DNA of 64,000 nucleotides from Paenibacillus borealis. GTDB taxonomy: Bacteria > Bacillota > Bacilli > Paenibacillales > Paenibacillaceae. Positions within the stretch are counted from its first letter, which is position 1. Each line of letters starts with the position of its first letter. Location of the stretch: positions 3,968,001 through 4,032,000 of the forward strand of contig NZ_CP009285.1 of the NCBI RefSeq assembly GCF_000758665.1, written 5' to 3'. The notes beneath the pieces were generated by a model. That model was not told the DNA's origin, made no database searches, and was given only the letters and a program-made list of their open reading frames with translations. The position numbers and the translations under genes were made by a program. Shown here in pieces: positions 23,701-37,555 of the stretch.

Positions 23701-23736
23701 CACTAACAGAAACCTGAAGAAATGGAGGCCACAATC

Positions 23737-25650
23737 ATGGAGATTCAAGTGAAACTGCCGGATGGATCAATTAGGAGGTATTCGCGTAACACCACAGTTG
23801 CGCAGGTTGCGGAGTCAATCAGTGCCAGTCTGAAGAAGAATGCGGTAGCCGGTAAAATTGACGGCAGGCTCGTTGACCTTGATCACCCGGTTGAACAGGA
23901 TAGCCTCGTTGAAATTATAATGGCGGACAGTGAAGAAGGACTGATGATCCACAGACACAGTACTGCTCATCTGATGGCCCAGGCTGTCAAACGGATCTAC
24001 GGGGATCAGAATGTTAAATTGGGTATCGGTCCGGTCATAGAGGATGGATTCTATTACGATATTGATATAGCACGGCCGTTGTCCGTGGAGGATTTAGGGG
24101 CAATCGAACAGGAAATGGAGAAGATAATCCTAGAGAATCTGCCGATCCTGCGCCGGGTGGTCAGCAGAAGTGAAGCAATGGAACTGTTCCGGCAGCTGGA
24201 GGAGCCCCTTAAGCTTGAACTGCTCCGTGACCTGCCGGAGGATGCAGTGATCAGCTTGTATGAGCAAGGTGAATTCACTGATCTGTGCCGGGGGCCGCAT
24301 TTGCCGTCTACTGGCCGGATCAAGGCCTTCAAGCTGCTTAGCGTAGCGGGAGCCTACTGGCGCGGGGATTCAGATAATCAGGTGCTCCAGCGGATATACG
24401 GAACTTCATTCTTCAAGAAATCCCAGCTGGAGGAGCATCTCCACATGCTGGAGGAAGCGAAGAAGCGTGACCACCGCAAGCTGGGTAAAGAACTTGGATT
24501 GTTCATGTTCTCCGAAGAAGCGCCGGGTATGCCGTTCTATCTGCCGAAGGGCATGCTCATCCGTACTGAGCTGGAGAACTTCTCGCGTGAATTACAGAGG
24601 TCCAGCGGCTACGATGAGGTCCGTTCACCGCTGATGATGAACAGAAGGCTATGGGAGCAATCCGGACACTGGGATCATTATAAAGACGAGATGTATTTCA
24701 CAAAAGTGGATGAAACAGACTTTGCGCTCAAACCGATGAACTGCCCCGGGCATATGCTGATCTACAAGAACAGCCTGCGTTCCTACCGGGAGCTGCCGAT
24801 CCGGATTGCTGAATATGGGCAGGTCCACCGCCATGAATTCTCGGGAGCGCTAAATGGAATGATGCGTGTCCGCACTTTTTGCCAGGATGATGCCCACCTG
24901 TTTGTCCTGCCGGAACAGATTGAGGATGAAATTAGCCGGGTGCTGGAGCTCATTGATCGGATGTACAAAGTATTTGGTTTCGAGTACAAGGTGGAGCTGT
25001 CCACACGTCCGGATGATTATATGGGGGCTGAAGAGCTCTGGGATCAGGCGGAGCTGTCACTCGAACGGGTGCTGAAGAACAACGGGATCGAGTATCGGGT
25101 GAACGAGGGGGATGGCGCTTTTTACGGGCCTAAGATCGATTTCCATATCCTTGATGCCTTGAAAAGAAGCTGGCAATGCGGTACAATCCAGCTGGATTTC
25201 CAAATGCCGGAGAAGTTCGATCTGACTTATATTGGTGAAGATAACGGGAAACACCGTCCGGTAGTCATTCACCGTGCAGTATTCGGCTCCATTGACCGGT
25301 TCATGGGCATTCTTACAGAGCACTTCAGCGGAGCTTTTCCGCTGTGGCTGTCTCCCGTACAAGTCAAGCTGCTGCCTGTATCCAGGGTTCATGCTGATTA
25401 TGCCTTCGAGGTTAAAGAGCAGCTGCAAGCCGCCGGGCTTAGAGTAGAGCTTGATTTACGGGATGAGAAGCTGGGTTACAAAATCCGTGAAGCCCAGCTG
25501 GAGAAGGTGCCTTATATGTTAGTACTCGGAGATCAAGAACAAAACAACGGTGCAGTTACTGTACGAAGCCGTGCGGAGAGCTCACAACTATCGCTCAGTG
25601 TGCAGGAGTTCATTCAGCAGCTGGCGGGCCAAATTGCTGAGCGGAAATAA
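23737..25650 (+). CDS. thrS: Threonyl-tRNA synthetase
   Basis: A 637-aa class II synthetase. The N-terminal TGS domain (about residues 1-62) is followed by the editing domain with HSTAHL and its Cys/His region FTDLCRGPHLPSTG. The catalytic core has motif 2 and zinc ligands around MNCPGHMLIYK and RVRTFCQDDAHLF, and motif 3 sits near HRAVFGSIDRFMG. The anticodon domain is C-terminal. ATG 23737 is chosen over 23722 because GGAGG (23725-23729) sits seven bases before it. Transcription is attenuated by the upstream T-box, so expression rises on threonine starvation. Confidence 0.96.
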   Translation: MEIQVKLPDGSIRRYSRNTTVAQVAESISASLKKNAVAGKIDGRLVDLDHPVEQDSLVEIIMADSEEGLMIHRHSTAHLMAQAVKRIYGDQNVKLGIGPVIEDGFYYDIDIARPLSVEDLGAIEQEMEKIILENLPILRRVVSRSEAMELFRQLEEPLKLELLRDLPEDAVISLYEQGEFTDLCRGPHLPSTGRIKAFKLLSVAGAYWRGDSDNQVLQRIYGTSFFKKSQLEEHLHMLEEAKKRDHRKLGKELGLFMFSEEAPGMPFYLPKGMLIRTELENFSRELQRSSGYDEVRSPLMMNRRLWEQSGHWDHYKDEMYFTKVDETDFALKPMNCPGHMLIYKNSLRSYRELPIRIAEYGQVHRHEFSGALNGMMRVRTFCQDDAHLFVLPEQIEDEISRVLELIDRMYKVFGFEYKVELSTRPDDYMGAEELWDQAELSLERVLKNNGIEYRVNEGDGAFYGPKIDFHILDALKRSWQCGTIQLDFQMPEKFDLTYIGEDNGKHRPVVIHRAVFGSIDRFMGILTEHFSGAFPLWLSPVQVKLLPVSRVHADYAFEVKEQLQAAGLRVELDLRDEKLGYKIREAQLEKVPYMLVLGDQEQNNGAVTVRSRAESSQLSLSVQEFIQQLAGQIAERK

Positions 25651-26380: not shown

Positions 26381-26389
26381 TGATATAAT
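26381..26389 (+). promoter_or_regulatory. Extended -10 promoter of the SMC-complex operon
   Basis: TGATATAAT (26381-26389) fits the extended -10 TGNTATAAT. The -35 region (TAGCCA near 26361) is weak. A start near 26396 would give a leader of about 135 nt. Confidence 0.55.
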
Positions 26390-26445: not shown

Positions 26446-26482
26446 AGCCCATATTTCACCCTTCGGGGCAGATGTGGGTTTA
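26446..26482 (+). other. Leader hairpin of the SMC-complex operon
   Basis: AGCCCATATTT pairs with AGATGTGGGTT (11 bp with G-U pairs) around an inner CCC/GGG. No T-run follows, so it is a leader structure rather than a terminator. Confidence 0.45.
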
Positions 26483-26531
26483 TGTTATGTTGTGAGGTAA
26501 ATTATGAAGTGATGGCGAGGTTGGCTGGAGC

Positions 26532-28037
26532 ATGAACTGGAATGATTTTGGAGAACGGAACAAGCGGCTGAATCCCTTGTGGAGTCTGGGTGCAGGCATG
26601 AATCTTGGTGAGCTTCAGCCTTATAAGGAAATGATTGCTCTAAGTGTACTGCTGCAGGTCTATTATCTGGAGCTGGAATCGAATGAGCAGAGATCCAGGG
26701 AGGACCTGGTCGAATTGACGTGGAGCTCGCTTGAACGCTTCGGCATCGCGAAGCTCGGCAGTCCGGAATCGGTGGAACGGCTCGTGGACGGGCTGCTGTG
26801 GAGCGGAAACGGCGGGGATTTCGAGGCTAACTATTACGATGATCATTCCCGGCAGATGGCGGTGCAGAAGTATAAATATTTCACCGTAGATGAAGATGCC
26901 ACCCGCACCAGCTGGGAAGAGAACGGGACTACCATCTACCGGCTCTCCGAATATGCGATGGAGCTGATCTTCATGAGCCATGAGATCATTGATGAATTTC
27001 AGATCAGCATCAAGCTGCTCGAGATCCAGATGCATATCAAGCATGGACGGGTAACCCGGGCGATGCAGGATGTGAATGAACTGATCTCACGGGTGCGGAA
27101 GATGACCCAGCAGCAGCAGGAATACCGCAATGCGCTGCGCCGCAACCCGAAGCATATCTTCAGCGAATACGGTACCCAGCGGCATCAGCGGCTGGAGGAG
27201 ATCCATCAGCAATTTGACGAGGAACGCAAGCATTTCGATAATATCCACCGCTCGCTGGCCCGGCTGGCCAATGATGAGAAGGATGTCATCGACTTCAATG
27301 AGCTGCGGCTGCTCTCAGAACGGGTAGAGCTCTCGCGGAGAGTGCATGATGAGCTTGCTGAAGTCGTGCTGAGCATCTTTGAAGCGGAAACCAATCTCAG
27401 GCTCAACTTCCCGGAGCTGTTCTGGGGTGCCGCCGGCTTCAACTTCCGTACCCATGTATGGGAGGAATGGGTGAAGCCGGAAGGATTACCGGATGGGGAT
27501 AGCATGGAAACCCTGATCAGCGGGCTATTCTCTCCCAGCCAAGACTTCATTTATCCGCTGGCCTGGGCCTGGGAAGAGCAGGATGTCGGCTTCCTGCCGG
27601 ACGAATTGCCGGATGACCCGGATGAAGCCGGGGACGAAGAGGAAGTACACTATGTTCCCAAAGGCATACCTTGGGCTGGGGTATGTGATCTATGGCTGCC
27701 GGTCTTAACCGGAGTGGCAGAGCAAGGAAGCTTTACGTTCTCGGCAGAGGCCTTCTCCGCGGAAGAACAGCGGCGCTGGGCGGAAACTCCGGATGCCGTG
27801 GATCTGTGGGTACAATTTTTCCATACCGAAATTACCGTACAGGAACAGGAAGCGGAAGGCCAGGGCGGGGCAGATGAATGCCAGAAGCTGATTCAGCAGC
27901 TGATCAGCGGTCATCCGGAGCTGGAAGTGTTGAGAGGCAAGTTACTGCGGACCAGGATTGCTAACAGGCAGCAGGGCAGCATCCGCTGGCCCGGTCTGGA
28001 GATCAGCCCTTATACCATTACTATAGTAGAGAAGTGA
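26532..28037 (+). CDS. JetA/MksF/MukF-like kleisin subunit of an SMC complex
   Basis: A 501-aa soluble protein, first of a three-gene operon whose last member is a MukB-sized SMC ATPase. By position and size it is the kleisin-type subunit, matching JetA of Wadjet systems. The N-terminal part (about residues 1-150) looks like winged-helix folds, ending in YRLSEYAMELIF. A long helical, Arg/Gln/Glu-rich middle follows (about 155-305, coiled-coil-like). Then comes an acidic linker (DELPDDPDEAGDEEE near 360) and a C-terminal folded domain. It would bridge the two SMC heads and bind the MukE-like subunit. The JetA assignment is mainly contextual; functional partnership is inferred. Confidence 0.72.
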   Translation: MNWNDFGERNKRLNPLWSLGAGMNLGELQPYKEMIALSVLLQVYYLELESNEQRSREDLVELTWSSLERFGIAKLGSPESVERLVDGLLWSGNGGDFEANYYDDHSRQMAVQKYKYFTVDEDATRTSWEENGTTIYRLSEYAMELIFMSHEIIDEFQISIKLLEIQMHIKHGRVTRAMQDVNELISRVRKMTQQQQEYRNALRRNPKHIFSEYGTQRHQRLEEIHQQFDEERKHFDNIHRSLARLANDEKDVIDFNELRLLSERVELSRRVHDELAEVVLSIFEAETNLRLNFPELFWGAAGFNFRTHVWEEWVKPEGLPDGDSMETLISGLFSPSQDFIYPLAWAWEEQDVGFLPDELPDDPDEAGDEEEVHYVPKGIPWAGVCDLWLPVLTGVAEQGSFTFSAEAFSAEEQRRWAETPDAVDLWVQFFHTEITVQEQEAEGQGGADECQKLIQQLISGHPELEVLRGKLLRTRIANRQQGSIRWPGLEISPYTITIVEK

Positions 28038-28048
28038 GATGATTCAGC

Positions 28049-28807
28049 ATGAGTTATTCGTTAGAGCAAGTACAGCAGGCTTCAAGGCTGTTCTTCGACC
28101 TGCTTCGCCGCAAGGTGATATCACTTGATGATCCCGCTGCCGCCGAATGCCTGCAGGATACCGTCGCCTATGATGCCTTACAATATGTGGCCAAAGAAGC
28201 CGGCTGCCGGATTATGAACTCGGGGCATCGCCTGCACCTGCTCGTGAGTCCAATGGGTTCCGGCTTCGCCAGCAACTTCACACAGCTGCGCAATAAATAT
28301 TCCCGCATCGAACGTAAGACGCATCTACATATCATCAACGTAATCATTCTGGTGTTCCTGGCCGAGATGGATCAGGATGAGCAGCATTTCAAGCCGGGTC
28401 AGGACAGCATGTCCTACATTCAACTCTCGGATCAGGTATCAGCCCTGTTCCAGACATGGATGGACATGGACGAAGACTGCAGCTTCAGCAAGCAGTGGCG
28501 GCTGGATATCCAGGCAATGCACAAAGTGTGGAGCAGTCTCTACATGCAGACCAAAAGCCAGGAGGAAGGCGATTCGCTGACCCGCGGTGCCGGCTCCCGG
28601 ATCGGCCTGATCCATGAGGGGATGAAGCTGCTGGAGGAAGAGCATCTGGTATTTATCTCCGAGAACGAGAAGCGGATATTCCCGAGGGAAGAGCTGTATG
28701 AGCGGATGCGTTATCTCTATCATGATGTGGACCGCTACAAAGAGCTGAAGGCCCTGATTGGCCGGACTCTCAGCGAGAAGGAGGATGAAGCCCATGCCGC
28801 GCATTGA
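28049..28807 (+). CDS. JetB/MksE/MukE-like subunit (DUF6063-like) of an SMC complex
   Basis: A 252-aa protein, 11 bp after the kleisin-like gene and overlapping the SMC gene by 14 bp, so stoichiometric co-expression is likely. It is predominantly helical with winged-helix-like stretches (SLEQVQQASRLFFDLLRRK; GRL-type IGLIHEGMKLLEEEHLVF). The C-terminal segment FPREELYERMRYLYHDVDRYKEL is typical of MukE/JetB-like partners of SMC complexes. No enzymatic motif is visible. The role, a dimeric regulator bound to the kleisin, is by analogy. Confidence 0.7.
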   Translation: MSYSLEQVQQASRLFFDLLRRKVISLDDPAAAECLQDTVAYDALQYVAKEAGCRIMNSGHRLHLLVSPMGSGFASNFTQLRNKYSRIERKTHLHIINVIILVFLAEMDQDEQHFKPGQDSMSYIQLSDQVSALFQTWMDMDEDCSFSKQWRLDIQAMHKVWSSLYMQTKSQEEGDSLTRGAGSRIGLIHEGMKLLEEEHLVFISENEKRIFPREELYERMRYLYHDVDRYKELKALIGRTLSEKEDEAHAAH

Positions 28808-31800
28808 GCGAATCCGCATCGCCGGACTTAAATATGAGAAGATGCTGAAGAAATATGAGGATATGATCCTCGACCTGTGCAATGAGGAAGGCCCGGCCAA
28901 CACGCTGATCACGCTGATGAACGGCGGGGGAAAGGGCGTGCTGCTGCAGTCCATATTCCAGCTGCTGATGCCCAAGGCGGCTTGGGGTAAGGATAATGAG
29001 AACCAGGTAGAAGCCTTCTTCCATAATCACAAAAAACAGCTGAAGCCCTACACGTTCCACGTGGCCATTGAATGGCGGCTGGACGCTCCGGAACGGACAG
29101 AGTACATAACTACCGGAATCGCAATGACTGCCCAGAACTCCATCGATCAGCTGGAGATCAAAGTGGATTATCTGCTCTATGCGCTGCTCAATTATGATGA
29201 GAATGCTGAGCTTACACTGTCTACACTGCCGCTCTACGATCATGGGCTGAACAGTCCGGCCAGCTTTGAAGCGATTCAGCAATTCGTCCGGGAGCGGCGC
29301 AATGAGATCGTTGCGTACGGCAGCCATAGCTCCGACCTGAAGAAATATTACGCCTTTCTGGCGGACCGGGATATTCATATTGATGAATGGCGTAATATGC
29401 GGAGAATCAACGGAGAAGAGGGCGGGATTAAAGGCTATTTCCAGAAGAATGACGCCTTCACCAACCACAATCTGTTCGAGAAGCTGATTATTCCGGAAAT
29501 CGGGTCCAGTCTAAATGGCAGTATGCGCGAGGATGAAGGTTCACTTCAGCGGATGTTCATAGATTCAGCTACGGTTGCACAGCGGCTGCCGATGCTGGAG
29601 CAGAGAGAGCGCGCTTTTGCCGAATTCACTTCACTTGCCGCGCCGCTCTACGAGTCAGTCAAGCAGGGGACGGAGGCTGACCGCAGCTTTCAGGAAACGG
29701 AATTACTTGGACGGCAGCTGTACACTGTGATCTACGATGAGCTGAAGCATGCTGAAGACAAACGCCGCAAAACAGCTGATGAGCTGGCCGGACATTATCA
29801 GGAAGCGAAGCAGCTGAAATTTGAGACGGATAATCTGAAATATCTGAAGCTCAAGGAAGAGCGTGACCGCAAGCAGGATGATTTCAAAGCGGTCTCGGAT
29901 AATCAGGCACGGGCTAAGCAACGGCTGGAAGAGTCGAAGATGAAGGAAAAGGATCTGGAGGTTGCCCATTATTTAGCCAGACGCAGACTGCAGATCCGCC
30001 AGATGGAGCAGTGGCAGAAGGAAATTGAAGCCATCGAAGGTTCTCTTGCGATGAAGGAGCGCCAAGAGGTTATCCAAGCGGCCAAGCAGGAGCTTCGGGT
30101 GCAGTGGGATGAGGTCTACCGGTTATGGCAGGCACGAATTCAGTTCTTCAGCGGCCGCCAGCAAGCTCTGGGTGCAGAAGAGGCCATTCTGCGCAAAGGC
30201 CGGGAGGCATTCCTGCTTGAACTCGGCGGACTTGAAGGCAAAATCCATGAATTGACGGCGCTCATCCGCCAGTATACCGAAGATCTGGGGGTCTTCGCTT
30301 CCCGCCACGGACAGGAAGCTGCCCATTCCCCGGCAGCCGCACTTCAGCGCACGCTGATTGCAGCCAGAAGCATCGCCGAGAATATCATTGCCCTGAACGG
30401 GCAGCGCAAATCCGCAGAAGAAGAGAAGCTTGCCCTGCATACCAGACATACCCGGCTGACTGAGAAGCTGCTGGGGACTGCAAGCCAGGCAGAGGAGTTA
30501 ACGGACCGGATTGAAGTCCAGATGGGCAAGGAATCACAGCTCTGGTCGCAGCTGGTCGTTCTGCTGGAAATGTATGAAGAACATCAGCTGCTCGGGACGA
30601 CGGCATTGTTCGAAGCGAAAGCTCTACTCCAGGAACGGTTCATCCGCAGAATGGATGATGCCGAGCAGCAGACGAAGCGGCTCAGACGCGAATATTATAA
30701 TCAGCTGCTGGATGTAGAGCTGCAGCAGGAAGCCTATTGGCTGCCTAATAATGATATCCTGACGGTTAAGGATGCTCTGGACGCCCTGAAGATCAGCTCT
30801 ATGATCGGCAGCGCATATCTGAACGACCAGTCTTATCTGGTCCGCGAAGAGGAGCTGGAGCGTCACCCTTTGCTGCCTTACGGGCTGATTGTAACGAAGC
30901 GTGAATCGGCTAAGCTTCAGCCTGAACTGCTTCAGGAGCTTCTGCTCAAATCTCCTGTCCCGATCTTCGTGCGCGAGGAAATGGCTGATGCGACAGGCGC
31001 TTCATTCCTGCTGCTCTCCCATCAGGGACCGCGGATGGTGCTTCAGCCGGAACGCTTCCTGGACTGGAAGCAAGGGATCGCTTCACGGCTCAAGGAGCAG
31101 GAAGAGGAGCTGCAGGATGCGGAAGGTTATCTGGCGAAGCTGAAATCAGCCAGACTGGAGTATGACCGGCTGCTTCAGGGTGAGCACACCGTGAGTCTGA
31201 GGGCCAGACAGAAGGTATTAGAGACCCAGCAGCAGGAGCTGGGCAAGAGTCTGAATGAATTGAATGCTGAAATGTCGCTGAATGAAGAGACTCTATCCGG
31301 AATTTCCAGAGACCTGGCTGTCAGTGAGGCGGAGAAAACCGAGCATGAGACCAGGGCAGCGGCGCTGCGTGAGTGGGTGGAGCGGAGCCGGAAGCAGGAG
31401 CAGGATTACAAAGACAAACAAAAGTCAGTTGAATTGAAGACTACCTTAAGCAAAGAGATTGCCGTCAAGGAACAGCAGCTGGCACATCTGAAGGCAGATA
31501 TGGACAGCCTCGCCCTGCAGCGTGAGAAGTGGCTGGGAGAAGCTAAGTATTCCTTGTTCCCGCGGCTGCAGAACTGGTTCCCGGAAATCCACTTCCCAAG
31601 TGAACATGGCGGTGCTGCACAAGATACTGTGCAGGAGGAAACAGTGCCGGATGAGGCTGTACAGGATAAGCTGCTGCAGCTGCTGAGTACCGTGGAAAGC
31701 CAGCAGCAGTCCCTCAGCCAGAATGAGCTGGAGATCCGTACACGGGCTGCCCAGATCAAGGCGGCAGGTCAACAACTGGTTGAACTGGAAGCAGCAGTAC

Positions 31801-33284
31801 AGCAGGTCGATGACGGATGGCAGTCCGCACCTGAACCGAACGATTCACCGGAGGTTATTCAGTCGGCCAGAACGCGCCAGAAGAGTGACACTGGAATTCT
31901 GGATGAGGATTATCAGAATATCCGTGATTCCTACATCCGCTGTATGGCGGAGCTGGATAACCTGCAGAAGGAGCTGGGCAAATCCGAGAAGGCGATCAAG
32001 GAGAAGCACGAGCGTGCTGTGGAGCTCTGGCATGAGCCGCTGGGCCAGAAGGAAGAAGAGATCAGTGCGCGCTTCCGCGAGAATGAGCATCTGCTGAATA
32101 CCTGCAAGCAGGCGCTTGCATCTATGGATATGTGGCTGCAGACACTCTCCAATCAGAGCAAAGTTATGGATACCCATGTTGAGAGCCGTGTGCAGCTGCG
32201 GGATGTTCCGGAAGAGGTGCAGCTGGATGTGCGGGAGAACTGTGAGCAGCTGGTTGCAGACTGGCTCCTGCGCAGCAAGGAGAGCCGCAGCCAGCGTGCG
32301 GAAATCTCGCGCAAAGTCAAAGAAGAGAAGACAGCCTTAAGCGGCAGATTGGCCAAGTCCGGCTGGAACGTTGAGCTGGAGACCAAAATTCAGGATCGCC
32401 TGAATACGGTTCATTGGGATGATTTCTCGATCGCACTGCAGGTGCTGGACTCGATGCTCCAGAGCTCACGTGATCAGATTGAGAGTATCCGCAGTGACAA
32501 GGAAGATATGGAGCTGTCACGCAAGCTGTGGGTAGGACGTGCCTCGAAGCGGGTCGTGCAGATTACCGACATTCTCAAGCGGATGGAACGCCGGATGATC
32601 ATTCATAATGAGAACGGGCATGCCTTCCCGCTGGTCCGGCTGAATTACAAGAATATTACCGTTCCGAGAACGACAGATGACATCGAACCGCTGGTCAGTG
32701 AGTATTTCAACCGCTGCATCAGCAGCCTGCTGGAGAAGTTCCCGAAGATCGAACAGGTTCCGGCTTCCGCAGTCAGAGAGCTGATTAATGACGGGCGGAT
32801 GGTGTATGCCGCGCTGCAGAACCGCTTCCCGGTGCTCCAGGTATATAAACCGGTGACCGAGAATTATTTCCTCTACGCAGCACCGGAAGAGTACCATTAC
32901 TCGGATTGGGAGGTCATTAACCGCGGGGCGCTGGATGAGGCCGTCGGCAGCGGCGGTCAACGCCAGTCGGTTCAGCTGCTGGTGGCGATGATGATTATGA
33001 CCCACAAGCGCGTCAACCGTGAGAATAAAGGCTGGACAGTCTTCCTGTACGATAATCCGTTTGGTGAAATGGTCTCCAATAACGTGCTTGATCCGGTATT
33101 CGAGATTTCCAAGGCGCTGAAGTTCCAGTGGCTGATCGTTACGCCGCCGGAGCTGGTGAAGAATGATGTCAGCATCCGCTTCGGCGTGTACTGGCAGCTG
33201 TATTTTGGCGGGGATAAAGGAGATGCACTGGATTCAACTCTGATCAAGGGCGGGCGTAAGCTTGTCCCTGCCTCATTGTTCTAG
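28794..33284 (+). CDS. JetC/MukB-like SMC ATPase with non-canonical Walker motifs
   Basis: A 1496-aa SMC-type ATPase. The N-terminal head has a P-loop-like NGGGKG (residues 43-48) with Gly where Ser/Thr is expected. Long coiled coils run about residues 190-640 and 770-1250, around a hinge-like folded region (about 645-765). The C-terminal head has signature SGGQRQ (1386-1391) and Walker B FLYDNPF, with Asp1420 followed by Asn1421 where the catalytic Glu normally is. AAGGAGG (28778-28784) nine bases before ATG 28794 fixes the start over 28785. By analogy the complex extrudes or traps DNA, but the usual JetD nuclease gene is absent; the next gene is an aldo/keto reductase. Confidence 0.85.
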   Translation: MPRIERIRIAGLKYEKMLKKYEDMILDLCNEEGPANTLITLMNGGGKGVLLQSIFQLLMPKAAWGKDNENQVEAFFHNHKKQLKPYTFHVAIEWRLDAPERTEYITTGIAMTAQNSIDQLEIKVDYLLYALLNYDENAELTLSTLPLYDHGLNSPASFEAIQQFVRERRNEIVAYGSHSSDLKKYYAFLADRDIHIDEWRNMRRINGEEGGIKGYFQKNDAFTNHNLFEKLIIPEIGSSLNGSMREDEGSLQRMFIDSATVAQRLPMLEQRERAFAEFTSLAAPLYESVKQGTEADRSFQETELLGRQLYTVIYDELKHAEDKRRKTADELAGHYQEAKQLKFETDNLKYLKLKEERDRKQDDFKAVSDNQARAKQRLEESKMKEKDLEVAHYLARRRLQIRQMEQWQKEIEAIEGSLAMKERQEVIQAAKQELRVQWDEVYRLWQARIQFFSGRQQALGAEEAILRKGREAFLLELGGLEGKIHELTALIRQYTEDLGVFASRHGQEAAHSPAAALQRTLIAARSIAENIIALNGQRKSAEEEKLALHTRHTRLTEKLLGTASQAEELTDRIEVQMGKESQLWSQLVVLLEMYEEHQLLGTTALFEAKALLQERFIRRMDDAEQQTKRLRREYYNQLLDVELQQEAYWLPNNDILTVKDALDALKISSMIGSAYLNDQSYLVREEELERHPLLPYGLIVTKRESAKLQPELLQELLLKSPVPIFVREEMADATGASFLLLSHQGPRMVLQPERFLDWKQGIASRLKEQEEELQDAEGYLAKLKSARLEYDRLLQGEHTVSLRARQKVLETQQQELGKSLNELNAEMSLNEETLSGISRDLAVSEAEKTEHETRAAALREWVERSRKQEQDYKDKQKSVELKTTLSKEIAVKEQQLAHLKADMDSLALQREKWLGEAKYSLFPRLQNWFPEIHFPSEHGGAAQDTVQEETVPDEAVQDKLLQLLSTVESQQQSLSQNELEIRTRAAQIKAAGQQLVELEAAVQQVDDGWQSAPEPNDSPEVIQSARTRQKSDTGILDEDYQNIRDSYIRCMAELDNLQKELGKSEKAIKEKHERAVELWHEPLGQKEEEISARFRENEHLLNTCKQALASMDMWLQTLSNQSKVMDTHVESRVQLRDVPEEVQLDVRENCEQLVADWLLRSKESRSQRAEISRKVKEEKTALSGRLAKSGWNVELETKIQDRLNTVHWDDFSIALQVLDSMLQSSRDQIESIRSDKEDMELSRKLWVGRASKRVVQITDILKRMERRMIIHNENGHAFPLVRLNYKNITVPRTTDDIEPLVSEYFNRCISSLLEKFPKIEQVPASAVRELINDGRMVYAALQNRFPVLQVYKPVTENYFLYAAPEEYHYSDWEVINRGALDEAVGSGGQRQSVQLLVAMMIMTHKRVNRENKGWTVFLYDNPFGEMVSNNVLDPVFEISKALKFQWLIVTPPELVKNDVSIRFGVYWQLYFGGDKGDALDSTLIKGGRKLVPASLF

Positions 33285-33325
33285 CAACAATCCAAATCAT
33301 ATAGATGGGTGGTATTCTGATAATG

Positions 33326-34153
33326 ATGAATCTAAAGTCGACAACGAAGCTAGCTAACGGTGTAGAAATGCCTTGGTTTGGTCTTGGGGTGTTCAAAGTA
33401 CAGGAAGGTCAAGAGGTTGTGGATTCTGTCAAAGCAGCAATTAAGGCCGGATACAGAAGCATTGATACAGCAACAGTCTATGGAAATGAAGAAGGAGTCG
33501 GTCAGGCGATCCGCGAATCCGGGGTTGCCCGCGAAGAGCTGTTCATCACCACCAAGGTATGGAATAACGATCAGGGGTATGATTCTACACTGGCGGCATT
33601 TGACCTGAGTCTCAGTAAGCTGGGTCTGGACTATGTGGATCTGTATCTGGTGCACTGGCCGATCAGAGCTAAATACAAAGACACCTGGCGGGCGCTTGAA
33701 AAGCTGTATGCGGGTGGAAAAGTCCGGGCGATCGGTGTTTCGAACTTCCAGATTGACCATTTGGAAGATCTTCTAACTGAAGCCAAGGTGAAGCCGATGG
33801 TGAACCAGGTCGAGCTTCATCCGCTGCTCAGCCAGCTTGAGCTTCGTGAGTATTGCCGGGCGCAAGGTATCCAGATTGAAGCGTGGGCTCCTCTGGCCCA
33901 AGGCCATCTGCTGGACAATGAGGTGATTGCTGATATTGCGGCACGCCACAACAAAACGCTGCCTCAGGTCATCCTGCGCTGGGATCTGCAGAACGGCATT
34001 GTGACGATTCCGAAGTCGGTCAAGGAAGAGCGGATTATCGCGAATGCCGATATCTTTGATTTCGAGCTGTCAGAGGATGAAATCAGCCGCATTAATGCGC
34101 TCAACAACAACCAGCGTTTTGGATCGCATCCGGACAGATTTAATAACGAGTAA
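33326..34153 (+). CDS. YvgN/YtbE-like aldo/keto reductase (glyoxal reductase type)
   Basis: A 275-aa NADPH-dependent AKR, very similar in layout to B. subtilis YvgN, which reduces methylglyoxal and glyoxal. The catalytic tetrad members Asp47 and Tyr52 lie in RSIDTATVYGNE, Lys in FITTKVW and His in YLVHWP. The C-terminal IPKSVKEERI binds the cofactor phosphate. ATG 33326 gives the YvgN-like N-terminus; 33323 and 33305 are in-frame alternatives and no start has a strong RBS. It lies 41 bp after the SMC gene with no clear terminator between, so read-through is possible. Confidence 0.87.
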   Translation: MNLKSTTKLANGVEMPWFGLGVFKVQEGQEVVDSVKAAIKAGYRSIDTATVYGNEEGVGQAIRESGVAREELFITTKVWNNDQGYDSTLAAFDLSLSKLGLDYVDLYLVHWPIRAKYKDTWRALEKLYAGGKVRAIGVSNFQIDHLEDLLTEAKVKPMVNQVELHPLLSQLELREYCRAQGIQIEAWAPLAQGHLLDNEVIADIAARHNKTLPQVILRWDLQNGIVTIPKSVKEERIIANADIFDFELSEDEISRINALNNNQRFGSHPDRFNNE

Positions 34154-34237: not shown

Positions 34238-34278
34238 CGATATAGTAGAGTAGAGATATGAGAGCCGGAGGGGTATTA

Positions 34279-35892
34279 ATGTATGGGAAAACTTTAAAAA
34301 CTGCGCTTATCGCCATCCTGCTGATCCTGCTGCTGCCACTGGCTCCAAGCCGCACGGAGGCGGCTGTTCCGGCACATTCGGAGTCCTTCTACGTGAATGA
34401 CTTCGCGGCCGTCATTGATCAGAAAACAGAGAACTATATGGTCAATTATGGTGTGAAGCTGCATCAGCAGACCGGTGCACAGGTTGTACTGGTAACAGTG
34501 GATTCTACAGGCGGAACATCGATGGAAGATTACGCGACTTCACTGTTCAATGAATGGGGAGTCGGATCTGCGGATAAGAACAACGGAGTCCTGCTGCTGC
34601 TCTCCACCCAGGATGACGATTACTGGGCAGTTCCGGGCAAAGGCCTGGAGGATACGCTGAACGACAATGTGTTATCCCGGATTCTCTCGGAGTCGCTGGA
34701 GCCGGATTTCGCCAAGAAGGATTACAACGCAGGCGCGCGCAGAACCTATGGTTCGTTAATTCAAAGCCTAGGCGGAGTCTATTCAGAAACCCTCGGCACC
34801 AAAAACTATGTAGCGGATAATGCCGGAGTCTTCAAACAAGTCACCAAGGATTATCTGAACCAGTCCAGCAACCGTTATGCGGCAACGACCGGAAGCGGGA
34901 TCTATGTAGTGACTGTCAAGAACTCCGGTGATACAAGCCTGCAGGATTATACGTATGCGAAGTTCGCCGGTGTAGCCGCAGGACCTAAAGATGTGATGCT
35001 GGTGCTCGATATCGGCGGAGATAACTATCATGTCCTTCAGGGCAAGGATATCGACAATCTGTTGACTAATGATATGATTGGCGGGATTCTGGATACTGCG
35101 CTTGAACCGAAATTTGCGGCAAAAGATTACGCTGGAGGTGCAACCGGGACGGCGAATGCCTTCTACAGTTTCTTCCTGGCCAGAGCGGATCATAGCCAAC
35201 AGCCTGCAGTTCCAAGCATGGAGTCTGCGGAGGTAAACTCTTTGCCTGCTGCGGACAGCCCTTCGAATGTGCCGGTGCGCACGTATCCAGACTCCAATTA
35301 TGATCCGCTAGACAAGGAGCCGGTTGACCGTTTAGACGGGAGTGCCATTATTCTTTGTTTTCTAATATTGGTATGGGGCTTCAGCGTATCCGCCTCTCGC
35401 CGCAACCGTAATATTGCCCGGTACGGAATCGGAATTAACCCGCATCACCCCGGCAATATACAGCGCTATGGTGTTTGGACGGGGCAGCCGGATTATGGCA
35501 TCAGGCGTAGAAGCTATAACCAAAGAAGCTATAACCAGCGGCCTCAACCCCGCAGCTCATCGTCCCGTAATGAATCACGGAGCAGCTTCTGGGGCAGTAA
35601 TTCAGGTGGCAGAGGTTCAACAAGCGGTGGAGGATCGGGCCGCTCTTCTTCCTCCAATCATGGAGGCGGAGGCTCGTCAAGCGGTGGCGGGGCTGGCCGT
35701 TCATCCTCTTCCCGCGGAGAAACCAATCATGGCTCAGGCGGATCTTCCAGCGGTGGAGGCTCTGGCCGTCATTCCTCGGGCTCTTCCAGCAGCAGCGGAG
35801 CTGGCCGCCATTCCTCAGGTTCTTCTGGAGGCGGTAATTCCGGCGGAGGCGGCAACGCAAGTGGCTGCGGTGGTGTAGGCAGACACCGGTAA
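34279..35892 (+). CDS. TPM-domain membrane protein with Gly/Ser-rich tail (copy 1)
   Basis: 537 aa. A signal peptide (hydrophobic core, cleavage near TEAAVPA) is followed by two tandem TPM domains (about residues 35-165 and 170-310): FYVNDFAAVID with NNGVLLLLS, then YVADNAG with DVMLVLDIGG. A transmembrane segment (about 360-377) comes next, then a basic cytoplasmic region and a C-terminal Gly/Ser tail with GGGxGRxSS-type repeats. Related TPM proteins (B. subtilis YdjH, E. coli YgcG) have no firm biochemical role; the domain is linked to membrane stress and to photosystem repair in plants. ATG 34279 sits six bases after GGAGGGG. It is a tandem paralogue of 36080-37555. Confidence 0.8.
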   Translation: MYGKTLKTALIAILLILLLPLAPSRTEAAVPAHSESFYVNDFAAVIDQKTENYMVNYGVKLHQQTGAQVVLVTVDSTGGTSMEDYATSLFNEWGVGSADKNNGVLLLLSTQDDDYWAVPGKGLEDTLNDNVLSRILSESLEPDFAKKDYNAGARRTYGSLIQSLGGVYSETLGTKNYVADNAGVFKQVTKDYLNQSSNRYAATTGSGIYVVTVKNSGDTSLQDYTYAKFAGVAAGPKDVMLVLDIGGDNYHVLQGKDIDNLLTNDMIGGILDTALEPKFAAKDYAGGATGTANAFYSFFLARADHSQQPAVPSMESAEVNSLPAADSPSNVPVRTYPDSNYDPLDKEPVDRLDGSAIILCFLILVWGFSVSASRRNRNIARYGIGINPHHPGNIQRYGVWTGQPDYGIRRRSYNQRSYNQRPQPRSSSSRNESRSSFWGSNSGGRGSTSGGGSGRSSSSNHGGGGSSSGGGAGRSSSSRGETNHGSGGSSSGGGSGRHSSGSSSSSGAGRHSSGSSGGGNSGGGGNASGCGGVGRHR

Positions 35893-36079: not shown

Positions 36080-37555
36080 ATGAATCGTAAAAGTATACAG
36101 GTTGTGTTCACCGCCATCCTGCTGATCATGCTGCTGCCGCTGGCGCCAAGCCGCACGGAGGCGGCTGTTCCGGCGCATTCGGAGTCATTTTACGTGAATG
36201 ACTTCGCGGATGTTATTGATCAGAAGACAGAGAATTATATGGTCAATTATGGTGTGAAGCTGCATCAGCAGACCGGTGCACAGGTTGTACTGGTAACAGT
36301 GGATTCTACAGGCGGAACATCGATGGAAGATTACGCGACTTCACTGTTCAATGAATGGGGAGTCGGATCTGCGGATAAGAACAACGGAGTCCTGCTGCTG
36401 CTCTCCATCAAGGATGATGATTACTGGGCAGTTCCGGGCAAAGGTCTGGAGGATACGCTGAACGACAATGTGTTATCCCGGATTCTCTCGGAGTCGCTGG
36501 AGCCTGATTTCGCCAAGAAGGATTATAGCGCAGGCGCGCGCAGAACCTATGGTTCGTTAATTCAAAGCCTAGGCGGAGTCTATTCAGAAACCCTCGGCTC
36601 CAAAAACTATATTTCGGACAATGCCGGGGTCTTGAAACAAGTCACCAAGGATTATCTGAACCAGTCCAGCAACCGCTATGCGGCAACGACCGGAAGCGGG
36701 ATCTACGTAGTGACTGTCAAGAATTCCGGTGATAAAAGCCTGCAGGATTATACGTATGCGAAGTTCGCCGGTGTAGCCGCAGGACCTAAAGATGTGATGC
36801 TGGTGCTCGATATCGGCGGAGATAATTATCATGTACTTCAGGGCAAGGCGATTGAAGGAACCTTCACCAATGAACTCATTGGCGGGATACTGGACACGTT
36901 ACTTGAACCCGAATTTGCGGCAAAAGATTACGCCGGCGGGGCAACCGCCACGGCGAATGCCTTCTACAGCTTCTTCCTGGCCAGAGCGGATGCCAGCCAG
37001 GAGACTGCGGCGATGAGCACCAAGTCTGCCGCTGCAGCAGGAAGCAAATCACCTGTAAAATCGGACATTAGCAGCAAACCGAAACCTGTCAGCGCATCTA
37101 CAGGATTAAAGATTATTGGAGTGTATCTAATAATCATTGCTCTGATCAGTCTTGCTGCATCCGGCCGCAACCGTTTAATTGCCCGTTTCGGATCACGGCT
37201 TAATCCGTTCAACCAGCAGAATATGAACCGCCTCGTTACCAGGTTCGGCTCAGGTTCTACTATGAGACAGCGGCGGCACCGCCGGCATGAGCGGCATCGT
37301 AACGAAGCCTTGAATCACAGCAGCTCGCAGAGCAGCTTCTGGGGAAGTAATGAAGGAGGCGGCGGTTCATCAAACGGAGGCGGAGTAGGGCGCTATTCCT
37401 CATACGAGGATGAGGATGAAAATGAAGGTGGGGGCGGTTCTACCAACGGTGGCGGAGCTGGGCGCTATTCTTCTTATGATGACGACGATGACGGTGATAA
37501 TTCCGGCGGTGGGGGGAGTGCAAGCAGCGGAGGCGGTGTGGGCAGACACCGGTGA
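36080..37555 (+). CDS. TPM-domain membrane protein with Gly/acidic tail (copy 2)
   Basis: 491 aa with the same order as copy 1: signal peptide, two TPM domains, TM segment (about residues 345-362), basic linker, Gly-rich tail. The tail differs in having Asp/Glu runs (YEDEDENE, YDDDDDGD) between GGGxGRYSSY units. The TPM-coding DNA is nearly identical to copy 1; the segment around 36242-36408 matches 34441-34607 over its whole length. The signal peptide start, TM region and tail have diverged. RBS GGAGGGG. This pattern suggests a recent tandem duplication or gene conversion limited to the extracellular domains. Confidence 0.8.
   Translation: MNRKSIQVVFTAILLIMLLPLAPSRTEAAVPAHSESFYVNDFADVIDQKTENYMVNYGVKLHQQTGAQVVLVTVDSTGGTSMEDYATSLFNEWGVGSADKNNGVLLLLSIKDDDYWAVPGKGLEDTLNDNVLSRILSESLEPDFAKKDYSAGARRTYGSLIQSLGGVYSETLGSKNYISDNAGVLKQVTKDYLNQSSNRYAATTGSGIYVVTVKNSGDKSLQDYTYAKFAGVAAGPKDVMLVLDIGGDNYHVLQGKAIEGTFTNELIGGILDTLLEPEFAAKDYAGGATATANAFYSFFLARADASQETAAMSTKSAAAAGSKSPVKSDISSKPKPVSASTGLKIIGVYLIIIALISLAASGRNRLIARFGSRLNPFNQQNMNRLVTRFGSGSTMRQRRHRRHERHRNEALNHSSSQSSFWGSNEGGGGSSNGGGVGRYSSYEDEDENEGGGGSTNGGGAGRYSSYDDDDDGDNSGGGGSASSGGGVGRHR

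Follow-up and report, generated by a model that had tools for sequence, protein, structure and literature searches.

A type III Wadjet core without its nuclease gene in Paenibacillus borealis, and recurrent loss of jetD among its relatives

We analyzed a stretch of 64,000 nucleotides of the Paenibacillus borealis genome (the window; bases 3968001-4032000 of a genome assembled as one contig of 8156808 bases), which carries a three-gene operon, jetABC, coding for the core of a type III Wadjet system without the gene for the JetD nuclease. Comparison with relatives makes it almost certain that this absence is secondary, i.e., that jetD was lost from an operon that once contained it. The derivation can be read from the genomes directly; as to function, our favored interpretation is that the three genes form a nuclease-free SMC complex that is kept by selection and acts on the chromosome.

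The initial annotation had described a JetABC/MukBEF-like operon, and its gene positions, the 11-bp gap between jetA and jetB, the 14-bp overlap between jetB and jetC and the size of the SMC protein were all reproduced (Table 1). JetC has 1496 residues when read from the ATG at 28794, and 1508 in the longest open reading frame (ORF), which begins with TTG. The PADLOC type III Wadjet models aligned with all three proteins over their full length (JetA3, E = 2e-235; JetB3, E = 1e-113; JetC3, E = 0), and the corresponding bit scores place the family assignment far beyond chance. Among Pfam families, DUF6063 exceeded its cut-off with JetB, the only one of the three proteins to reach one, and MukB, MukE and MukF had no match to the window proteins at E <= 1.

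The synteny of Paenibacillus, which the initial annotation had proposed to inspect, places jetD directly upstream of jetA. In relatives, both within the genus and outside it (genomes G095 and G096), an ORF coding for 356-433 amino acids immediately precedes jetA, overlapping it or lying a few bases away. Ten of these ORFs were scanned and all matched JetD3, one of them (L056) being only a 261-residue remnant; thus, the ancestral order was D-A-B-C. Residues E205, D263 and D265 (G059 numbering), which we take to be the Toprim catalytic acids, are invariant in 15 of 15 aligned JetD proteins, 13 from the genus and 2 from outside. Intact JetD genes of the genus end with PQEVLNYEVMARLA or close variants, and their stop codon lies at the jetA start or within a few bases of it; those closest to the window end with PQEVLNYEVMARLAR(A/G)*. 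The window retains just such an end as a scar, whose stop codon overlaps the jetA ATG and which likely includes the jetA ribosome-binding site. In a split alignment with the jetD-containing genome G136, 1050 bp are absent from the window; on the left the gap opens 8 bp ahead of the jetD start, and on the right it closes 34 bp ahead of the jetA ATG. The identical junction occurs in P. phytohabitans (G115) and in G122. Both the old jetD leader and an extended -10 promoter-like element, TGATATAAT, are still present in the window, and the same element is found upstream of jetD in relatives that have the gene. A hairpin predicted in the leader is not significantly stable (z of only -1.23 against shuffled sequences), resembles an element in the leaders of jetD-containing loci and, like the rest of the window, had no Rfam match at the gathering score. 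Gain of jetD was rejected as an alternative, given that fragments of the gene persist in genomes without an intact copy and that outgroups carry jetD.

That no jetD gene lies near the operon had been noted before, and the window indeed contains the scar only. The search of the whole genome was also empty, both with PF09983 and PF09664 at E <= 0.001 and with the PADLOC models PDLC00591, PDLC00592 and PDLC00522 at E <= 10. PF09664 had no match in any control genome, which makes it weak evidence alone, and PF09983 is a weak detector of type III JetD, scoring 14-41 bits in 9 of 10 JetD3 proteins, with 8 of 10 over its cut-off and 1 missed. The negative result therefore rests on the PADLOC models, among which PDLC00591 scores 168-416 bits on the same ten JetD3 proteins, most of which PF09983 barely detects or misses. 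With none of the five families positive anywhere in the genome, a JetD acting in trans was rejected as a candidate.

Loss of jetD is recurrent in the genus. In a sample of 100 Paenibacillus genomes, including that of the window, JetC of the window type occurred in 52 at E <= 0.001, and all 52 loci (the window and 51 others) were examined. An intact jetD is present in 14 of these (13 of the window's subfamily and the distant G116) and lacking, through loss or breakage, in 37; one fragmentary assembly (G023) allowed no call. Pieces of jetD could still be found in 11 of the 37 deficient loci (tblastn, E <= 0.01; weakly in G027, G034 and G040), and 20 retain just its last codons. The lesions, with approximately 23 distinct structures when counted by eye, include deletions with varying endpoints, a frameshifted jetD (G057) and an insertion (G134; L080, 10200-13300), in which an element of ~1.6 kb, presumably IS66-like, interrupts jetD while jetABC is intact. 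Site-specific excision was considered and set aside: endpoints vary among lineages and inspection by eye revealed no common repeat, which makes ordinary deletions, with selection for keeping jetA, the likelier cause. On a JetABC tree, as distinct from a species tree of housekeeping genes, with 52 tips (including the outgroups G096 and G116 and leaving out G023), the state of jetD changed at least 14 times. This number fell to 13 or 11 when branches with less than 80 or 95% support were collapsed and then resolved as leniently as possible, and it rose to 25 if regain was forbidden. P. ihuae, which has jetD, and P. auburnensis, which has a relic, are near neighbors on this tree.

The gene also shows signs of exchange between species. 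Over its body, which spans roughly -18 to +880, the jetD of G136 shares 69-87% identity with that of G118, compared with 94% in the adjoining leader and 89-99% in jetA; one patch of jetA, at 76%, also separates G118 from G059. In addition, species with jetD are nested among jetD-deficient species of one junction type. The natural reading of these sequences is that jetD was replaced or regained by homologous recombination, and scar alleles may also have spread between species. Four genomes of the genus (G040, G038, G035 and G025) carry a second JetD in what, judging from ORF sizes (in G035, those of ORFs other than jetD), appear to be separate type III D-A-B-C operons.

Genes left behind by the loss are well preserved: jetA, jetB and jetC are full length in 36 of the 37 jetD-deficient loci of the genus, the exception being G034. 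We calculated ratios of nonsynonymous to synonymous substitution rates (dN/dS) by the Nei-Gojobori method, pairwise rather than for specific branches, in four clades, each with a single scar common to its members, in which almost all divergence postdates the loss (pairwise dS, 0.09-0.52). Loci with differing scars (G058, G113, G120, G121 and G007), unclear cases (G026 and G100) and G123, which differs from its clade, were left out. Mean values for JetA, JetB and JetC, respectively, were 0.083, 0.035 and 0.070 for three pairs from the window's clade, 0.060, 0.026 and 0.073 for six pairs among four P. typhae-clade species, 0.073, 0.028 and 0.099 for the single pair of the third clade, and 0.086, 0.032 and 0.069 for three pairs of the fourth. 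Five pairs with jetD gave 0.106, 0.054 and 0.101 (G009 among them contains runs of N), such that the clades without jetD (0.03-0.10) do not exceed the pairs that have it (0.05-0.11). By comparison, a neutral simulation with 0.10 substitutions per site, roughly the share of one lineage in the window's clade, interrupted the 2249 codons of JetABC with about 24 in-frame stops. Also, the JetB N-terminus is, by eye, no more variable in species without JetD than in those with it. Such strong purifying selection after the loss implies that the complex is useful without JetD, and we are confident that JetABC has a JetD-independent function under selection.

A similar pattern was found in a second family. 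Of 296 genomes sampled evenly across the order, 82 had type III JetC at E <= 1e-20. Of these, 47 did not belong to Paenibacillus: 12 came from other genera of its family and 35 from a family designated f6. JetD matches were present in all 12 of the former and in 26 of the 35 f6 genomes, some of them partial or elsewhere in the genome. From f6 we took 20 loci, i.e., all but three of those without whole JetD and 10 with it; G241 and G292 (fragments) and G162 (jetC and jetD both interrupted) stayed outside the set. G265 (contig end) and G188 (locus mostly gone) were dropped, leaving 18. At least eight of these (seven in genus g36 and one in g22) lack an intact jetD and have open JetA, JetB and JetC frames, a proportion that describes a chosen set and is not a rate. 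Their frames, read from residues 40, 2 and 30, are as long as those of the ten loci with JetD. A jetD 3' tail or larger relic is present in seven of the eight (none in G192), and the genome of one, G170, codes for a further JetD at another place. The state of jetD changed 6 times among the 18 loci, and dN/dS of JetA, JetB and JetC was 0.054, 0.047 and 0.092 in pairs without JetD and 0.054, 0.037 and 0.083 in pairs with it. The f6 JetC belongs to a different subfamily, so the pattern is not the quirk of a single one.

These data suggest the following scenario. The ancestral jetD-jetA-jetB-jetC operon suffered a deletion of ~1.05 kb, which took out jetD beginning close to its ribosome-binding site and left its last 11 codons, the promoter-like element, the leader and the jetA start site in place; given these spared elements, jetABC is presumably still expressed. 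Without JetD, JetABC most likely remains an ATP-driven SMC complex that extrudes loops and works on the cell's own DNA alongside Smc, in the manner of MksBEF in Pseudomonas. JetD would be an optional and possibly costly add-on, often lost and sometimes re-imported by recombination.

The initial annotation had left three options: a housekeeping condensin, a defense variant without JetD, and use of a nuclease encoded elsewhere. The relatives and the scar have since settled the origin of the operon as type III Wadjet minus jetD, and they disfavor a JetD-family nuclease in trans. We give work on the chromosome the better chance against nuclease-free defense and other partners combined. In nuclease-free defense, JetABC would load on small circular DNA and compact or silence it, or block its replication or segregation, without cutting. 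Selection as strong as in relatives with JetD also fits retained plasmid handling, and the complex is accessory, as defense genes are (52 of 100 genomes of the genus); however, repeated loss of just the effector would be odd if defense were selected, and we regard this possibility as unlikely, though the strongest of the competitors. More doubtful still is a reading in which some other nuclease, from another locus, has taken the place of JetD and assists JetABC in trans. By eye, the loss has left no mark on JetB or on its N-terminal stretch, as if a partner were still bound, and G038 and G040 have a broken jetD at this locus together with the JetD of a second operon, which might act in trans. 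Yet none of the five families searched revealed a JetD in the window genome, no neighbor common to the jetD-deficient loci of the synteny set was seen beyond general flanking genes, and many separate replacements would be needed. Finally, the operon could be a dying defense system, with jetD as the first casualty and jetABC now on its way to loss by drift, as the genus members without the operon and the decay of jetC or of the locus in G034, G188, G162 and G263 might indicate. This is strongly disfavored and has very little probability in our judgment: mean dN/dS is 0.03-0.10 at dS of 0.09-0.52 inside the four one-scar clades, frames are full length in all but one of the deficient loci of the genus, and the leader and jetA start region are retained in most of them.

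Several observations weigh against a selected role of JetABC on the chromosome. JetC of the window type is missing from 48 of the 100 Paenibacillus genomes, and the complex is thus not essential to the genus. G034 has a frameshift in jetC, and jetB is broken in G054 (L034, P. tengchongensis) though jetD, jetA and jetC are open, which may be either real or an assembly error. Six of the 37 jetD-deficient loci (G026, G039, G058, G100, G113 and G120) have no clear jetD tail. Only the 3' end of jetC is left in G188, and jetC is interrupted in G162 and G263; the f6 pairs used for dN/dS are not monophyletic, such that some of their divergence predates the losses. An unrelated nuclease may serve as partner. 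The Walker motifs of JetC are unusual, so ATP hydrolysis cannot be assumed from them, though members with JetD have the same motifs, and the proposed function as a whole is deduced from sequence. Chromosome action nevertheless seems to us the best reading. A broader version, in which the type III core in Paenibacillus and the second family is primarily a JetD-independent SMC machine with a detachable JetD, lost repeatedly without damage to the jetA start and at times regained through homologous recombination between species, and in which a shift from defense to a condensin-like role is ongoing and has occurred many times instead of once in the distant past, is tentative and, to us, slightly less likely than its opposite.

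A review (PMC10586767) derives both MukBEF and MksBEF from Wadjet, the latter via loss of JetD, as a speculation about deep time. Other articles describe nine strains with small plasmids that lack at least one jet orthologue (PMC12287153) and use the wording "incomplete Wadjet" (PMC11680222). We found no report in the open-access literature of repeated recent loss of jetD with jetABC kept. Here, the proposed step from Wadjet to a nuclease-free complex can be seen in many recent instances that carry scars, in two families and between close species. Natural matched pairs, e.g., P. ihuae and P. auburnensis, are suited to asking what JetABC does to the chromosome without cutting and what JetD costs. 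In genome annotation, a JetABC match lacking JetD should not be taken as evidence of an intact plasmid defense.

With type III Wadjet, the window operon shares all three core proteins, the A-B-C order and the tight coupling; it differs in lacking jetD, the first gene of intact D-A-B-C relatives, and in the Walker A motif of its JetC subfamily. JetC contains Walker A (NGGGKG, residues 38-50), signature (SGGQ) and Walker B (YDNPFGE, residues 1415-1426) motifs. The Walker A Ser/Thr is replaced by Gly and the Walker B Glu by Asn (DN) in all readable members of the genus and in G096, with NGYGKG as Walker A in G116, whereas five other type III JetC proteins have GGGKT, yet also DN in Walker B. Since NGGGKG and DN also occur in members with JetD, they are unrelated to its loss. 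Like MksBEF of Pseudomonas aeruginosa, the operon codes for a kleisin-KITE-SMC core without a nuclease (kleisin here by family name and a weak model), but it belongs to another lineage (type III, DUF3584) with recent, repeated loss marked by scars, and its role on the chromosome is a proposed one. A canonical Smc gene is located elsewhere in the same genome (3855067-3858606; 1163 bits), and JetABC is therefore additional.

The likeness to MukBEF is one of predicted fold, JetB resembling MukE and JetA resembling MukF, and is not matched by membership in the Muk families of Pfam. The nearest solved structures to the JetB model (predicted local distance difference test, pLDDT, of 79) are type I Wadjet JetB and MukE, which indicates a KITE (tandem winged-helix) fold, and the MukE-like nature that had been suggested for this protein is upheld. 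For the kleisin-like first protein the outcome was weaker: the JetA model is of low confidence (pLDDT 67.9), and its top Foldseek match is MukF (E = 1.2e-3), with unrelated helical proteins scoring equally on a second look. Searches against sequences of solved structures gave only weak unrelated matches for JetA and JetB, whose structural placement is by predicted fold only. JetC, from the window or from G096, had no relative there by single sequence, and a JetC profile retrieved only six unrelated weak matches.

Table 1. Features of the jetABC operon and its upstream region (positions in the window)
Feature	Position	Strand	Remarks
Extended -10 promoter-like element	26381..26389	+	TGATATAAT; assigned by eye
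Leader inverted repeat	26448..26478	+	CCCATATTTCACCC...GGGCAGATGTGGG; 11-bp stem in predicted fold
jetD scar	26498..26535	+	last 11 codons and stop (NYEVMARLAGA*, 26500-26535)
jetA (kleisin-like)	26532..28037	+	501 aa; PADLOC PDLC00565, 780 bits; Foldseek top match MukF
jetB (KITE), DUF6063	28049..28807	+	252 aa; PDLC00573, 376 bits; PF19539, 74 bits
jetC (SMC ATPase, DUF3584)	28794..33284	+	1496 aa; PDLC00584, 3067 bits

The operon had been said to lie outside any obvious island, in agreement with the conserved order of its flanking genes in many members of the genus. Some members have it in other surroundings: the same jet operon was observed with other upstream or both flanks at L042, L044 and L036 and at L053 and L054, suggesting that it was moved or exchanged as a block. 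The next ORF downstream of jetC (33305-34153, 282 aa) is, by resemblance, presumably an aldo/keto reductase. A threonyl-tRNA synthetase gene, ThrS (23722-25650), adjoins the operon; it is one of two ThrS genes in the genome, and second copies in relatives are ~55% identical. No T-box was seen near it, as judged from the lack of Rfam matches in the window at the gathering score. Farther downstream of the operon, 34258-35892 and 36080-37555 code for tandem, similar, secreted-looking proteins with Gly/Ser-rich tails, and the copy number of this pair varies among relatives.

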